From Thermoproteota archaeon (lineage in GTDB: Archaea > Thermoproteota > Bathyarchaeia > RBG-16-48-13 > GCA-020355125): a stretch of DNA of 52,540 bases. Numbering within the stretch: the stretch's first letter is position 1; each line of letters begins with the position of its first letter. The stretch is taken from contig JAUPKU010000106.1 in the NCBI GenBank assembly GCA_030837285.1, forward strand, positions 1 through 52,540, given 5' to 3'. Positions 6,910 to 52,540 of this stretch are shown here, piece by piece. A program made the position numbers and the translations under genes. The notes beneath the pieces were generated by a model. It worked only from the letters and a program-made list of their open reading frames with translations, was not told the DNA's origin and did not search any database.

Positions 6910-8316
6910 ATGAACAAGGAATTTAAGACCGTCTTTAACGGCGCGGAAACAATTGTAAAGATACCATCAGAGAATATCAAAGCAGTTCTGACGCTACACG
7001 ACCGACCTGCGCTTAAGGATCCTGAGGAGAAGATGCGTAAGCTTCTTGAGGATCCAATTGGCTGCAAAAAGCTCGTTGACATTGTCAAGCGCGGGGACAA
7101 GGTCGTCTTAATCTCAGAAGAACTATTCATGAATCCTCAGACGGCGATTGTTGCTCCAGTCGTCGTCGAAGCGTTGAAGAAGGCAGGTGTTAAGAGTGAA
7201 GACATAACCCTCGTAAACGCTCCTGGAACGCATCAGACTGAGGAGCAACAGATGGTTAGTTCAATGATTCCAAAGCTCTTCGGTTCCCTTTGGAGCAAAT
7301 ACAAGATCGTGTATCATGACTGTGATAAAAGGGACAAGTTAACGTATGTTGGCGAGACAAGCCAGGGTACACCTGAATTTGTCAACAAGGCTGTTATGGA
7401 GGCTGATGTTAAGATAGGCTTCAACTCCCTCCCGCCACATCACTCATCCGGTCACTGTGGAGGAGGAAAGATAATCATGCCTGGAGTCAGCGGCAGAGCA
7501 TCGATTGGCTCTATGCACAGAAGAGTCATGTGCCCAGACTTCAGGGAGTGGGAGGTGGGACTACCTAATCCAAAGAACATGGTTAGGAAAGACATTCACG
7601 ACTCAGCTCGTTTGGCAGGCTTGGACTTCTGCGTCGACGTTGTAAATAACTGTGAGGGAGAAATCGCCGACATCTTCGCCGGAGATTTTGAGAAGGAGTA
7701 CAACGAGGGGGTTACGAAAGTCTCATCCAAAATCTATGGGACTGAGATGGACAAAAAGGCTGACATCGCGATATACTTGCCACCCCCCAGCCAGACAACG
7801 GGTGGTATGGGAGCAGGTACTGGGACAAAGTATCTAGCCGGTGTTATGTTGAGTCCACCTCTCTCTTGTGATATGGCCACGACTGGCGATGGAATATCTA
7901 TAATCGTTCAGTCTGCTGAGGGAGGCTTTGACTCTCCTGGAGGCATTTCACCAGGTCTTAACGATACAGATTTAGCTCTAGTAAATAGGAGAAAGCAGAG
8001 TTACTTGTACCCGCCTAGGCATGTGACCTTTGTGCAAAACATTATGCAGATGACATCTGACGAGCTTGGCTGGATGATGGCGAAGGGTGAATACGATCTA
8101 CGTGACTGTTCACTCATGTGGCAATCCAGAAAAACCCTCGACGTCAAAGAGACATTCCTAGTCTCACTCTTCCCAAAGGACGTGGGGCTCTCGTTGGGCT
8201 TCAGCTATGTGACTCCGAACTTTGATGAAGCCTTGAAGAAGGCCTTTGAGGAGAAGGGCAAAGACGCCACTATTGCTGTGGTCTATGGTGGGCGGTATCC
8301 GATCGTTAAGAAGTAG
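6910..8316 (+). CDS. LarA-family (nickel-pincer 2-hydroxyacid racemase/epimerase) protein, copy 1
   Basis: ORF 468 aa; PPHHSSGHCGGGKIIMPGVSGRASIGSMHRR matches the LarA cofactor-Lys/His region. Confidence 0.85.
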   Translation: MNKEFKTVFNGAETIVKIPSENIKAVLTLHDRPALKDPEEKMRKLLEDPIGCKKLVDIVKRGDKVVLISEELFMNPQTAIVAPVVVEALKKAGVKSEDITLVNAPGTHQTEEQQMVSSMIPKLFGSLWSKYKIVYHDCDKRDKLTYVGETSQGTPEFVNKAVMEADVKIGFNSLPPHHSSGHCGGGKIIMPGVSGRASIGSMHRRVMCPDFREWEVGLPNPKNMVRKDIHDSARLAGLDFCVDVVNNCEGEIADIFAGDFEKEYNEGVTKVSSKIYGTEMDKKADIAIYLPPPSQTTGGMGAGTGTKYLAGVMLSPPLSCDMATTGDGISIIVQSAEGGFDSPGGISPGLNDTDLALVNRRKQSYLYPPRHVTFVQNIMQMTSDELGWMMAKGEYDLRDCSLMWQSRKTLDVKETFLVSLFPKDVGLSLGFSYVTPNFDEALKKAFEEKGKDATIAVVYGGRYPIVKK

Positions 8317-14128: not shown

Positions 14129-14572
14129 ACTTCACTATGGCCTATCCTTTCTTGCATATTTTCTGCTTTATTTGTGCTATGCTTCCTCCTAACACGCAGT
14201 ATATGTACCTGCTAACACCAAGTTCGACATATCTAAACTAGAAAATGAAAGTTTTACGAGCGATGATCTTTCAGAAAGCTTTGAATAATCGTCTTTAGGT
14301 CGTCACTGTGCGATTCGGTGTATTGTCGGAACAGTTCTATATCTCTAACATAGAATTTCGCTAAGGACTAAGATAGCTATAAATTGACAGTGCAAAAGTC
14401 ATGGAATTTATTGGCTCGGTATTGCCCGAATGTCGGGAGTTCAAATCTTCCCGTCCTCGATCTCTTCTACGGAGCATGTTACAACAATTTGTCTTGTTTT
14501 CCGGCTGTTTTTCTGTATTCATGTTGGCAAGTCTTATATCCGTTCTTCTTAACATGTACTTCCGAAGGGATA

Positions 14573-15973
14573 ATGATGGAAAAAGAGTTTAAGACAATTT
14601 TTAATGGTGCGGAGACAACTGTGAAACTGCCATCGGAGAACATGAAGGCAGTGATCTCTTTTCATGATCGTCCAGGGCTTAAGGATCCTGAGGGGAAGAT
14701 GCGCAAGCTACTTGAGGATCCAATAGGCTGTGAGAAACTCGCAGACATAGTCAAGCGAGGTGACAAGGTCGCCCTGATCTCAGCCGAGTACACGATGATG
14801 CCGCAGACTTGGATTGTAGCTCCCGTAGTCGTTGATGCGTTGAAGAAGGCAGGGGTGAAGGATGAGGATATCACCCTCGTTAATGCTCCTGGAACACATC
14901 AGACTGAGGAGCAGCAGATGGTGAATCCGCTGGTTGCAAAACTCTTTGGAACCGTTTCAGGCAAGTACAGGATGGTTTACCACGACTGCGACAAGAAAGA
15001 CAAGCTGACGTACGTTGGCGAGACAAGCCAAGGCACCCCAGTATTCGTCAACAAGACGGTTATGGAAGCTGATGTTAAGATAGGCTTCAACTCGATACCA
15101 CCCCATCATTCAGCTGGCCACTGTGGAGGAGGAAAGATAATCATGCCTGGAGTATGCGGCAGAGCTTCCATTGGCGCTATGCACAGGCGGGTGATGTGTC
15201 CTGGCTTTAGAGAGTGGCAAGTTGGACTGCCAAATCCGAAGAATATGGTTCGGAAGGATATTCACGACTCAGCCCGTCTTGCTGGTTTGGACTTCTGCAT
15301 TGACGTCGTGAGCAACTCGCAGGGACAGATCATTGACATCTTCGCCGGAGACTTCGAGAAAGAGTACAACGAGGGAGTGACAAAGGTTTCCAGCAAACTC
15401 TACGGAACTGAGATGGATGGGAGAGCGGACATAGCCATACACCTACCAACCGCCAAGCCAATGTCACAGGGACCATTTGCAGACCCGAAGTACCTGACAG
15501 GGGCAATGCTACAACCCCTTCTCGCAGCTGACATGGCTACGAAGGATGATGGCATCTCCATCATCGTTCAGTCAGCGGAGGGAGGATTTGACTCCGCTGG
15601 AACACTGGGTGGGGGCTTCACGGATGTAGATCTCACGCTTGAGGCTAGACGAAAACGAGGCTACGTCGACCCGTTCAGGCACGTTACGAACGTGCTTCAA
15701 TACCTTAAGATGACTTCGGATGAGCTGGGTTGGATAATGGCTATGGGTCAGTATGACCTGCGAGACGCGTCACTCATGTGGCAGGGCAGAAAAACCCTTG
15801 ACAGCAAGAGAATGTTCCTAGCCTCACTCTTCCCCAAGGAGGTAGCGCTTACACTTGGCTTCAGATACGTGACTCCGAACTTTGATGAAGCGTTGAAGAA
15901 GGCCTTTGAGGAGAAGGGCAAGGACGCGACCATTGCAGTAATCCAAGGCGGTCGATATCCAATCATCAAGTAG
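14573..15973 (+). CDS. LarA-family protein, copy 2
   Basis: MMEKEFKTIFNGAETTVKLPSEN... closely parallels copy 1; PPHHSAGHCGGGKIIMPGVCGRASIGAMHRR. Start set at 14573; the upstream ORF extension is not homologous. Confidence 0.88.
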   Translation: MMEKEFKTIFNGAETTVKLPSENMKAVISFHDRPGLKDPEGKMRKLLEDPIGCEKLADIVKRGDKVALISAEYTMMPQTWIVAPVVVDALKKAGVKDEDITLVNAPGTHQTEEQQMVNPLVAKLFGTVSGKYRMVYHDCDKKDKLTYVGETSQGTPVFVNKTVMEADVKIGFNSIPPHHSAGHCGGGKIIMPGVCGRASIGAMHRRVMCPGFREWQVGLPNPKNMVRKDIHDSARLAGLDFCIDVVSNSQGQIIDIFAGDFEKEYNEGVTKVSSKLYGTEMDGRADIAIHLPTAKPMSQGPFADPKYLTGAMLQPLLAADMATKDDGISIIVQSAEGGFDSAGTLGGGFTDVDLTLEARRKRGYVDPFRHVTNVLQYLKMTSDELGWIMAMGQYDLRDASLMWQGRKTLDSKRMFLASLFPKEVALTLGFRYVTPNFDEALKKAFEEKGKDATIAVIQGGRYPIIK

Positions 15974-36149: not shown

Positions 36150-37478
36150 TCAATTGGGCGGCAGAATGTATCCTCCTTGGTAGAGGACAGTTATTGTAGC
36201 GTCTTTTCCTTTCTCTTTAAACGCTTTAGCAAGCGCATCATCGAAGGAGCTGGTCACGTAGTTCATTCCCGCAGCCTTTAGGAACTCCTTGTTTTCGTGA
36301 TCTGTAACTAGGAAGTTCTCCTTGAGTTCCAAAGCTTTTTTGACTTGCCATGCACACGCGGTATCCCGTAGATTAACGCCCTTTTCCATATCTCCGCAAA
36401 CGTTCCAAGCCATTTGCTCAGTACTCAACCTCATAAGGGCTGGCGTGAAAGTCTGGTGTCCTGTAGGTGCTTGCCATCCACCCTCACCCGATATAACTTG
36501 GATTACGATACCATCGTCCTTTGTCGCTTGATCCGACATGAAAGGCGCGTACCAGAAACAACCATTAATGTACTTTCCTCTGTCACCGCTCAAGTATATG
36601 CAAATATCTGTCTTCTCTTGAATTCTGGTTCCATAGATCTTATCTGCCAGCTTCACTCCTTCCCTATACTCCTTTCTAAAATCTCCAGCGTAAATGTCGT
36701 AGAGATCTCCAGCTGGGCGGCCTGTCACGGTATCGATTTTGAAGTCCAATCCTGCGAGGGCAGCAGCGTCTTCTATATCCCGTCTCACTTCGTTCTTCTC
36801 ATCGTTCCCGAAGGCTCCGGTCTGCCATTCGTCATGGTACTTCTTATTCTTCTGGTTCATAACTCTTCTATGCATTGAGCCAATTGTCGCTCTAGCGCAG
36901 ACACCTGGTAGAATAATCTTTCCACCACCACAGTGACCAGCTGAATGATGAGGACTTAACTCTCCAAAACCGATCTTAACATCCGCTTCCGCTACAGCCT
37001 TATTTACCCATACAGGCGTTGCTTGACTGGTGTAACCTATGAAAGCATGAGTATCTCTCTTATCAGAGTCATGAAGAACGAGTTTGTGTTTACCATATAA
37101 GGGGCCGTAAAGCTTCTTGACAAGTGGATTCTCTACCTGCTCTTCTTCTGTCTGATGTGTTCCTGGAGCGTTGATGAGCGTAATATTCTCATCTTTTACT
37201 CCTTCTTTCTTGAGTAAGTCAACAACTACAGGAGCTAAAATCCATGTAAAGGGTGATCGCCCATATTCTGAAGATATCAGGGCTACCTTGTCACCCCTCT
37301 TCACTATGTCAGTTAGCTTCTTTCCTCCGATAGGGTTTTCCAGTAGCTTCTTCAACTTCTCTTCTGGCTTATCCAGCTTCGGTGCCGTATGAGGAACTAT
37401 CACGTTTACAACATTTGCTTCAGGCAGCTTGATCAGCATTTCATGTCCAGCGTAAGTCGTCTTAAACTCTTTGTCCAT
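36150..37478 (-). CDS. LarA-family protein, copy 3 (divergent)
   Basis: MDKEFKTTYAGHEMLIKLPEANV; SPHHSAGHCGGGKIILPGVCARATIGSMHRRV. Confidence 0.85.
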   Translation of the reverse strand: MDKEFKTTYAGHEMLIKLPEANVVNVIVPHTAPKLDKPEEKLKKLLENPIGGKKLTDIVKRGDKVALISSEYGRSPFTWILAPVVVDLLKKEGVKDENITLINAPGTHQTEEEQVENPLVKKLYGPLYGKHKLVLHDSDKRDTHAFIGYTSQATPVWVNKAVAEADVKIGFGELSPHHSAGHCGGGKIILPGVCARATIGSMHRRVMNQKNKKYHDEWQTGAFGNDEKNEVRRDIEDAAALAGLDFKIDTVTGRPAGDLYDIYAGDFRKEYREGVKLADKIYGTRIQEKTDICIYLSGDRGKYINGCFWYAPFMSDQATKDDGIVIQVISGEGGWQAPTGHQTFTPALMRLSTEQMAWNVCGDMEKGVNLRDTACAWQVKKALELKENFLVTDHENKEFLKAAGMNYVTSSFDDALAKAFKEKGKDATITVLYQGGYILPPN

Positions 37479-49094: not shown

Positions 49095-49322
49095 TTACAT
49101 GACTATTGTGGTTAATGTTGATCTTACTTTATCAAGTCGTCTGACACGGTTTGTCACAATTTCTTTTAGCTTATCCATAGTTTCAGCTTCAACTTTTGCT
49201 ACTATATCGTAGACGCCGTAGACTTGGTAGGCCTCTTTTACATTACCGAGTTTCTTAAGAGCCTGAAGAACTTCAGTATCGGCTCCTGACTCAACATTGA
49301 TTAAGACGAATGCCATAGCCAT
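49095..49322 (-). CDS. stand-alone Lrp/AsnC ligand-binding (RAM) domain protein
   Basis: 75 aa; AFVLINVESGADTEVLQALKKLGNVKEAYQVYGVYDIVAKVEAETMDKLKEIV. Confidence 0.88.
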   Translation of the reverse strand: MAMAFVLINVESGADTEVLQALKKLGNVKEAYQVYGVYDIVAKVEAETMDKLKEIVTNRVRRLDKVRSTLTTIVM

Positions 49323-49569
49323 TTTTTCTTCCTCTGATGCTGTTACCCTTATGTACGTTTCTTCTTTTTTATGTTTTCGGCGAAATTAGAATTTTGAAAA
49401 AGAAAAAAATGTATTCTTTGTGAGAAGTTAAATTAATGATTTCAAACAAGTGATTATCTAGTTAATTGATTATTTTCTTTGCCGCATAATTGTGCACAGA
49501 ATTGTTAGAGCTATAATTAGAGAGCGTGTCACTTTTTTTGGGTCGTTTCTGAATTTAATTATGATAATC

Positions 49570-50370
49570 TTACTGTTTTTTGGAGACGTCGCTTTTTAGT
49601 TGCTTCAGTTGTTCCATGACAGTCTCAGTTTTCTGAAAGATATCGTCTCGAGACTTTATTCCTTCTTGAATGAAGAATGTCATTGCTTCAGACAGATTCT
49701 TGAATAGTCCCAGTTCGAGAAGGGAGTTAAGTTTAGCCCACTCACTATCGTCCAGTAGTAAATCTTTCTCATCGAAGTCATCGTCTGAACTGAAATCTGG
49801 AAGGTAGTATGCTTCATTATTTACGTTCTGATTTATTGGGTCTGGGATGATCTCGAATTCTGTTTCCTCGCCAACTACGACTACATCCGTGGGCTCAGTC
49901 TTAATCACCCGTAGCCAGGTGACAGAGCCGAGTAGATATCGGAGCATCTTTGATCTGAGGTATGTGACATCTCCTTCCGTGAATGGAGTATTCATATAAC
50001 TCTTTTTAGCCAGTCCTTTGATTAGTTCGCTCTTCCTTAGATGTTTCTCAATTGGGGCTAATACAATTTTCTTGGCAATTTTGGAGTCTGCCTTCTCAAC
50101 TGTGATCGTTTCTTCTGGAGAGACTCTTGCGTTGTTCCTTACTAGATTGGTTAATCCAATTATGTCTGAGCCAAAATCGTCTCTGTTGATTGGAACAACT
50201 CTTGCTACGGTTGTCCTCTTTCCTTTAATCTCTATCAGGTCGCCCTCACTGAAACCCATCTTGTTGATTACTTCTTTACTGAGTTGAATGTCGCATCTGG
50301 GCGTCTGTGAAAAGCGCTTTGAAATGTCAAGTGCAAATTCTATGTCTATTACCTTAAACTCGTTATCCAT
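49570..50370 (-). CDS. ATPase-less CDC48/VAT N-domain protein with acidic linker and C-terminal helical module
   Basis: RCDIQLSKEVINKMGFSEGDLIEIKGKRTTVARVVP...NNARVSPEETITVEKADSKIAKKIVLAP (double-psi barrel) plus LRVIKTEPTDVVVVGEETEFEI (Nc-like); no AAA+ Walker motifs; C-term LLELGLFKNLSEAMTFFIQEGIKSRDDIFQK. Confidence 0.82.
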   Translation of the reverse strand: MDNEFKVIDIEFALDISKRFSQTPRCDIQLSKEVINKMGFSEGDLIEIKGKRTTVARVVPINRDDFGSDIIGLTNLVRNNARVSPEETITVEKADSKIAKKIVLAPIEKHLRKSELIKGLAKKSYMNTPFTEGDVTYLRSKMLRYLLGSVTWLRVIKTEPTDVVVVGEETEFEIIPDPINQNVNNEAYYLPDFSSDDDFDEKDLLLDDSEWAKLNSLLELGLFKNLSEAMTFFIQEGIKSRDDIFQKTETVMEQLKQLKSDVSKKQ

Positions 50371-50755: not shown

Positions 50756-51232
50756 TTATCTCCTCGAGAAGAGATTTGTGAAGAACATTCTGATTCCCGA
50801 GAAGAGATTTGTGAAGAACATTCTGATTCCCGAGAAGACTCCTGTTGTCTTCATTGATTCAGAGTTTATACCAACCGACATTCTAACTTCTTCTGTTACT
50901 GGCTTGTTGACTTCATATTCGACAACTGCTGGTGCTGGATTTCCAGACAAATACTCTGAGGCCACAGATTGGATGGCTGGTTGAACTGTGACTAGCTCGG
51001 GTTTTGTTATTTGTATGGTTTGTTGTGTTGGAGTATGTTCAACGATTGCGGCTTGGATGACTGGTTGGGATACTGGTAAAATAGCTGTAATCTCAGCGAA
51101 TTTGCCTCTCCACTTCGTCTTGCAGCTTGGGCACTCGTAGAGTGCAACAGGGGTTTGTTTGATCTTCCATGTCTTTAGTGGGTGGTCCACTTCTGTTCCA
51201 CATTTTGTACAATTGGCCATTTTTATCGCCAA
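50756..51232 (-). CDS. zinc-ribbon protein with low-complexity linker and duplicated C-terminal segment
   Basis: NCTKCGTEVDHPLKTWKIKQTPVALYECPSCKTKW; C-terminal FSGIRMFFTNLFSGIRMFFTNLFSRR. Confidence 0.7.
   Translation of the reverse strand: MAIKMANCTKCGTEVDHPLKTWKIKQTPVALYECPSCKTKWRGKFAEITAILPVSQPVIQAAIVEHTPTQQTIQITKPELVTVQPAIQSVASEYLSGNPAPAVVEYEVNKPVTEEVRMSVGINSESMKTTGVFSGIRMFFTNLFSGIRMFFTNLFSRR
50765..50838. repeat. 33-bp perfect tandem repeat, about 2.2 copies
   Basis: CGAGAAGAGATTTGTGAAGAACATTCTGATTCC at 50765-50797 and 50798-50830, partial third copy from 50831. Confidence 0.95.
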
Positions 51233-51631: not shown

Positions 51632-51970
51632 GTGTATGTTAAGATGTCTGAAGATGAGCCAAAGCTAATTAAAGAATTTAGAGGATTATATGATTACGTA
51701 CGTCTTATGGGAGAGCACGTTAATCAGATTCATAGCCGCTTGGATGGCATTGAGAAGAACATAAACGAGATCGTCTCGAATCAGAGGAATCATGCTGCCG
51801 AGAATGCGAAAGAGATAGCTAACATAAAGGCGAACATGGTCTACAGGCATGAATTTAACGATTTCATTGAAAAGATGAGGACTAGTATGGGTGAGGAATT
51901 TCCACCTCTGCCTATTCTAAGGAAGGAACCTGTTGCAGCGGGAGAAACTCAGAGTGCCGGTGAACATTAG
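51632..51970 (+). CDS. hypothetical coiled-coil protein, paralog A
   Basis: LIKEFRGLYDYVRLMGEHVNQIHSRLDGIEKNINEIVSNQ; likely start ATG 51644. Confidence 0.7.
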   Translation: MYVKMSEDEPKLIKEFRGLYDYVRLMGEHVNQIHSRLDGIEKNINEIVSNQRNHAAENAKEIANIKANMVYRHEFNDFIEKMRTSMGEEFPPLPILRKEPVAAGETQSAGEH

Positions 51971-52141: not shown

Positions 52142-52540
52142 ATGTCCGGTAGAGAATCTCTTTTACAACGATTTCGTGAATTGCACGACTATGTGGGTTC
52201 TATAGGGGAGCATGTTAATCAGATTCATAGCCGCTTGGATGGCATTGAGAAGAAAATAGGTGCGCTCACAAGAGAGCATAACTCTTTCGTCGAAAGCACT
52301 AAAGTTGAATTAGAAAGTATTGGAGAATTAATAACTACTAAATCTGAACTTGAAGAACTTCTACTAAAAATGAATAATGCGATTAAGGGTGCGCTACCCG
52401 TTCTACATGACTTAGCCTCGGAACTCTTACATTCAGGAGAGATAGAGGAGAAGGTGGAGGGTCAGATAGAGGAGAAGGTGGAGGGTCAGATAGAGGAGAA
52501 GGTGGAGGCGCTTCAGGGGCAGTCTACAAAAGAGGTGAAG
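52142..52540 (+). CDS. hypothetical coiled-coil protein, paralog B (runs off the window)
   Basis: Frame open for 133 codons from ATG 52142: MSGRESLLQRFRELHDYVGSIGEHVNQIHSRLDGIEKKIGALTREHNSFVES...IEEKVEGQIEEKVEGQIEEKVEALQGQSTKEVK. Confidence 0.7.
   Translation, partial: MSGRESLLQRFRELHDYVGSIGEHVNQIHSRLDGIEKKIGALTREHNSFVESTKVELESIGELITTKSELEELLLKMNNAIKGALPVLHDLASELLHSGEIEEKVEGQIEEKVEGQIEEKVEALQGQSTKEVK
52441..52508 (+). repeat. 24-bp tandem repeat, about 2.8 copies, in-frame
   Basis: GATAGAGGAGAAGGTGGAGGGTCA at 52441-52464 and 52465-52488, partial from 52489; encodes repeated QIEEKVEG. Confidence 0.95.

Follow-up and report, generated by a model that had tools for sequence, protein, structure and literature searches.

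The gene at 49570-50370 on the minus strand of the window, the whole 52,540-nucleotide stretch of Thermoproteota archaeon DNA analyzed here, encodes a 266-aa protein that has both halves of the VAT/CDC48 N-domain, no AAA+ motor, and a C-terminal tail related to the ribbon-helix-helix (RHH) fold. The protein recurs in related genomes, where it is held by purifying selection. The leading explanation is a dimeric VAT-N paralogue that has no motor and serves as an adaptor or regulator; taking that class of role as a whole, we give it about even odds, and the mechanism set out below is one that we infer. The parts are known, but a motorless CDC48-N domain combined with a disarmed RHH-type tail does not appear to be described in the literature found by a limited search. 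The features of the gene, in the order of the protein, are these:

49570..50370, minus strand: gene for the whole ATPase-less CDC48-N protein (ORF of 266 aa; orthologues; purifying selection)
50086..50289, minus strand: CDC48_N double-psi barrel subdomain, aa 28-95 (Pfam PF02359 and Foldseek to VAT-N/p97-N)
49987..50052, minus strand: lineage-specific basic segment between the subdomains, aa 107-128 (charge comparison)
49837..50007, minus strand: CDC48_2, second N subdomain, aa 122-178 (Pfam PF02933 above cut-off)
49765..49836, minus strand: acidic low-confidence linker replacing the N-D1 junction, aa 179-202 (charge and pLDDT)
49576..49764, minus strand: RHH-derived C-terminal module, aa 203-265 (hhalign and AF2 helices)

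An N-domain without its motor

The reading frame begins with ATG. A preliminary description, made from the sequence, had placed both halves of the VAT/CDC48 N-domain in it, and Pfam bears this out, with CDC48_N (PF02359) at aa 28-95 (E=7.3e-16, 58.6 bits against a curated cut-off of 35.1) and CDC48_2 (PF02933) at aa 122-178 (E=2.5e-6, 27.5 bits against 22.4), both above their cut-offs. The peptides quoted there (KKIVLAP, LRVIKTEPTDVVVVGEETEFEIIPDP, SSDDDFDEKDLLLDDSEW, and LLELGLFKNLSEAMTFFIQEGIKSRDDIFQK) are all present in the frame. Its claim that the ATPase is missing holds as well, as Pfam lists no AAA+ family in the 266-aa protein. The CDC48 model of NCBIfam (TIGR01243) reaches 73.5 bits against a cut-off of 802.65, matching the N-domain part only, and the two AAA+ modules with Walker motifs that characterize a CDC48/VAT ATPase are absent. 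Downstream, at 49322-49569, there is no AAA+ continuation in the sequence, and the next gene encodes a protein with an AsnC-type ligand-binding domain.

The top sequence match in the PDB is the N-domain of Thermoplasma VAT (1cz4, E=6e-13 over aa 38-181). An AF2 model of the chain, built from six sequences, is of moderate quality only (mean pLDDT 60, with aa 90-180 mostly at 65-84), and Foldseek leads from it to p97-N and VAT-N structures (E about 1e-10, target TM about 0.7). The structure prediction proposed as a check on the first reading therefore recovers the CDC48 N-domain fold.

Two stretches set this N-domain apart. The basic segment at aa 107-128 has a net charge of +4 or +5 in 4/4 orthologues, compared with -2 to +2 in 30 other N-domains, and it falls inside aa 102-151, the 50-residue stretch of the protein with the highest conservation (68% invariant versus 42% overall; 8 of 2,000 shuffles as high). 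This conserved stretch with its basic segment may form a special ligand surface. Beyond the second subdomain, where D1 would begin, lies the acidic linker that had been noted, with a net charge of -5 to -11 across four orthologues, counted over a 33-residue linker window. In the AF2 model pLDDT falls below 50 at aa 182-203.

A tail derived from the RHH fold

The tail consists of a ribbon-equivalent at aa 203-206 (DLLL), two helices at aa 208-220 and 226-236, and a long C-terminal helix at aa 238-265, the helices being those of the AF2 model. It had been likened to RHH segments by eye, a likeness that profile comparison sustains in two steps. Fused tails match stand-alone modules (hhalign, 99.0%, E=2.5e-18), and the stand-alone modules match genuine RHH_1 domains of the same genomes (93.4%, E=2.6e-7), the strand, turn, and helices falling into register. 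When fused tails are aligned to RHH_1 directly, the match is weak (14%). Several module sites score just under the cut-off of RHH_1 itself, and weak AbmR C-terminal and NikR matches in the stand-alone modules are hints towards RHH only. Searched on its own, the tail profile has no match in the PDB up to E=1, the monomer model of the tail finds nothing there by Foldseek with E<1, RHH entries included, and Pfam gives weak chance-level matches only for the tail of the window protein. By the two-step profile link, the tail is derived from the RHH fold and homologous to the stand-alone RHH-like proteins.

In the class Bathyarchaeia, 38 of 257 genomes carry the module, and in the phylum 65 of the 398 that were sampled; across the phylum it stands at the C-terminus of many proteins. 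Its other settings are proteins of 120-160 aa, some of them encoded beside methyltransferase genes, proteins that carry a zinc ribbon at the C-terminus, and proteins in which long coiled coils precede it. Four stand-alone module proteins (L037:4694-5107, L038:4581-4943, L071:1486-2148, and L074:1312-1713) have the motif CPEGE, often in the form CCPEGE, ahead of the ribbon, and the last three genes adjoin a methyltransferase gene that by eye resembles arsenite methyltransferase. Possibly, these CPEGE-bearing proteins are metalloid-responsive regulators.

The fused copies differ from the stand-alone modules at the ribbon. In 12/12 stand-alone modules, an arginine immediately precedes the final hydrophobic position of the ribbon (VxxR[LI]); it is present in 0/5 of the set made up of the four fusions and a tail-only relative, where L, S, S, L, and L replace it. 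A second arginine capping helix 2 ([ST]R[SN]E) is found in 13/13 stand-alone modules versus 2/5 of the same set, in which the hydrophobic core positions are retained. In the 266-aa protein, the ribbon-equivalent sits in the acidic stretch EKDLLLDDSEW. RHH homology, with ribbon and helices in register, thus reaches the fused tails through the two-step link, and the basic or polar DNA-facing ribbon of their relatives is missing from them. Loss of the ribbon arginine in all five copies argues for dimerization over DNA binding, and the tail would be a dimerization module that no longer reads DNA. Its stand-alone relatives probably do bind DNA.

The tail-only relative is an ORF of the same genome (contig C99, L002:1510-1818, plus strand); its 102 aa duplicate the tail and retain a small part of the domain before it. 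Upstream of the ORF, no frame encodes CDC48-N. It is possible that this ORF is a tail-only partner or a decaying copy.

Conservation and distribution of the fusion

The survey of related genomes suggested in the preliminary description finds the ATPase-less CDC48-N plus tail architecture in three more genomes of the same Bathyarchaeia family (G003, G005, and G006). These orthologues, located in Candidatus Bathyarchaeota MAGs CSMAG_2653, CSMAG_1002, and DVMM_8 by a GTDB contig scan that reaches close relatives only, so that distant cases could escape, are 56-59% identical to the window protein, share the start MDNEF, and are 267-272 aa long. Since three other genomes keep this frame open at 58% identity, with pN far below pS, the ORF is a real gene and not a chance one. 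Its product is under purifying selection: the closest orthologue pair has dN 0.043 and dS 0.264 (ratio 0.16), and between genera, where synonymous sites are saturated, pN is about 0.24, again far below pS.

The architecture was found in this family only, in 4/7 of its genomes. It was not found in the other three, one of which is a single 1.98-Mb contig (G002), and the protein is thus dispensable. In a tail search of the 257 class genomes, the fusion-length ORFs outside the family, among the proteins read, have another make-up. The four orphan N-domains form one clade (support 100/100) on a stem of 2.0 changes per site, apart from the sampled VAT N-domains. Viral contigs carry no relatives of the protein or of its tail, which puts viral origin out of consideration.

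The source genome (2.74 Mb, 89% complete) has two full-length VATs on other contigs (L042:4768-6924, 718 aa; L043:153-2321, 722 aa), a point that the first reading had proposed to check, and four proteasome-family genes. The related genomes keep the ATPase-less architecture, so that the outcome which the preliminary description had set against itself, an adjacent in-frame AAA+ module marking a truncated VAT gene, did not come about. One candidate for a third ATPase-less case (G076, contig C34) was rejected, since a frame break there divides a VAT gene in two.

A second family of CDC48-N proteins without an ATPase exists in Bathyarchaeia (L035:5916-6869, plus strand, 317 aa; L036:4809-5687, plus strand, 292 aa). 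The two proteins have a C-terminal domain in common (35% identity over 89 aa), and clear full matches are confined to 2/257 class genomes, one of which belongs to the family of the window and is without the orthologue of its protein. Like the window protein, this family has CDC48_N and CDC48_2 and no ATPase; it differs in its separate position in the tree and in a C-terminal domain unrelated to the tail of the window protein. Two such families with unrelated tails suggest separate origins of ATPase-less CDC48-N proteins in the class, the motor having been lost more than once.

Conservation of the gene neighborhood stops at the genus-level pair G003/G005, with a cysteine-synthase-like gene upstream in both, so that no partner is indicated by context. 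A nitroreductase-like match between the window and L046 was discarded as a shared neighbor, since it is off-position and of a common family. Several other genes of the window deserve a record. At 50756-51232 (minus strand) is a zinc-ribbon-like protein that ends in a tandem duplication, FSGIRMFFTNLFSGIRMFFTNLFSRR. Adjacent paralogous coiled-coil ORFs at 51632-51970 and 52142-52540 (both plus strand) have GEHVNQIHSRLDGIEK in common and are 36% identical over 96 aa; the second ends in a repeated GQIEEKVE unit and runs off the window. Three lactate-racemase-like (Lar_N, PF09861) paralogues, at 6910-8316 (plus), 14384-15973 (plus), and 36150-37478 (minus), lie within 31 kb.

Proposed role and comparison with known systems

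The adaptor or regulator reading supposes that a VAT/CDC48 N-domain was duplicated, diverged, and parted from its AAA+ motor, and was then joined via the flexible acidic linker to an RHH-derived C-terminal module. The tail would dimerize by its two-helix core and long C-terminal helix, and would not read DNA. The N-domains so paired may bind a protein ligand, whether a client, a cofactor, or VAT itself, with contact presumably made through the orphan-specific basic and highly conserved segment around aa 102-151, which the acidic linker might shield until a partner binds. The protein would then serve VAT as an adaptor without a motor, or regulate it by competition, in the manner of Ufd1 with eukaryotic Cdc48, and by that analogy clients or VAT cofactors would be either delivered to VAT or withheld from it. 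In its narrower form, a Ufd1-like cofactor by function and not by descent, in which a dimeric VAT-N paralogue with a disarmed RHH module recruits or withholds VAT clients, the proposal is a tentative one.

Other roles rank behind the adaptor or regulator class. A motor-independent holdase, the N-domains of the dimer binding unfolded or aggregation-prone clients with no link to VAT, is unlikely, if the most credible of these. It would suit the conservation of the orphan while its neighborhood varies, and VAT is described as having folding as well as unfolding activity (Golbik et al. 1999, as cited in PMC4192671). However, the N-domain has diverged far (stem 2.0) and VAT-like residues have been replaced, which speaks for a special partner over general client binding. 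Quite unlikely is a transcription regulator, with a dimer of the RHH-derived tail contacting DNA and the CDC48-N fold as sensor or effector: the ribbon arginine is lost in 5/5 copies and the helix-2 cap arginine in 3/5, and the ribbon-equivalent lies in an acidic stretch. What speaks for it is that the stand-alone proteins homologous to the tail have an intact ribbon, that the module is C-terminal in many proteins of the phylum, and that the N-domain has a basic segment; probable DNA binding by the stand-alone relatives leaves some room for a nucleic-acid role more generally. The earlier option of a transcription-associated factor is weakened accordingly; its RHH homology stands and its ribbon arginine does not.

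A larger assembly, in which CDC48 N-domains would be brought to a scaffold by pairing of the tail with further proteins that bear the module (the C99 tail-only protein, for example), we consider very unlikely. The same genome does encode this tail-only relative (about 50% identical), and mixed dimers are possible in principle for RHH folds, but the tail-only gene was found in this genome only. That the gene is a VAT in decay, a truncated one, or the product of a break in the assembly has a likelihood close to nil: lack of D1 and D2 and the reduced state of the C99 relative would fit, but start, length, and architecture are identical in kind across four genomes from separate assemblies, which together with purifying selection rules out a truncated VAT or pseudogene, and the C-terminal module is unrelated to AAA+.

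To our knowledge no archaeal VAT adaptor has been described, and our limited literature search found none named. A conserved motorless VAT-N paralogue would be a direct candidate for one, and as such would illustrate how loss of the motor can give rise to Cdc48 cofactors with an N-domain-like fold.

Compared with VAT, CDC48, and p97, whose N-domain in the eukaryotic p97 is a docking site for cofactors (PMC5468458; PMC4192671), the 266-aa protein is alike in subdomain order, fold, and clear sequence similarity, and differs in having an acidic linker and an RHH-like tail in place of the D1/D2 ATPase. Relative to VAT-N, the N-terminal strand region and the inter-subdomain linker are altered, with the basic segment and a short insertion, YLRSKxLRY. 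With RHH_1/CopG-type domains, the stand-alone tail relatives align in register and score just below cut-off, whereas the fused copies lack the invariant ribbon arginine and have an extra long C-terminal helix. Ufd1 is reportedly a motorless Cdc48 cofactor (Park et al. 2005, as cited in PMC4192671), and its fold is of the AAA N-domain type. It shares with the 266-aa protein this fold and the absence of a motor, and provides a working model for an ATPase-less N-domain. Ubiquitin and Npl4 binding are features of Ufd1; the 266-aa protein is closer in sequence to VAT-N, and has no Pfam match to the UFD1 families (UFD1_N1/N2) up to E=10. Judged by sequence, it is not a member of the Ufd1 family, and any likeness is one of working only.
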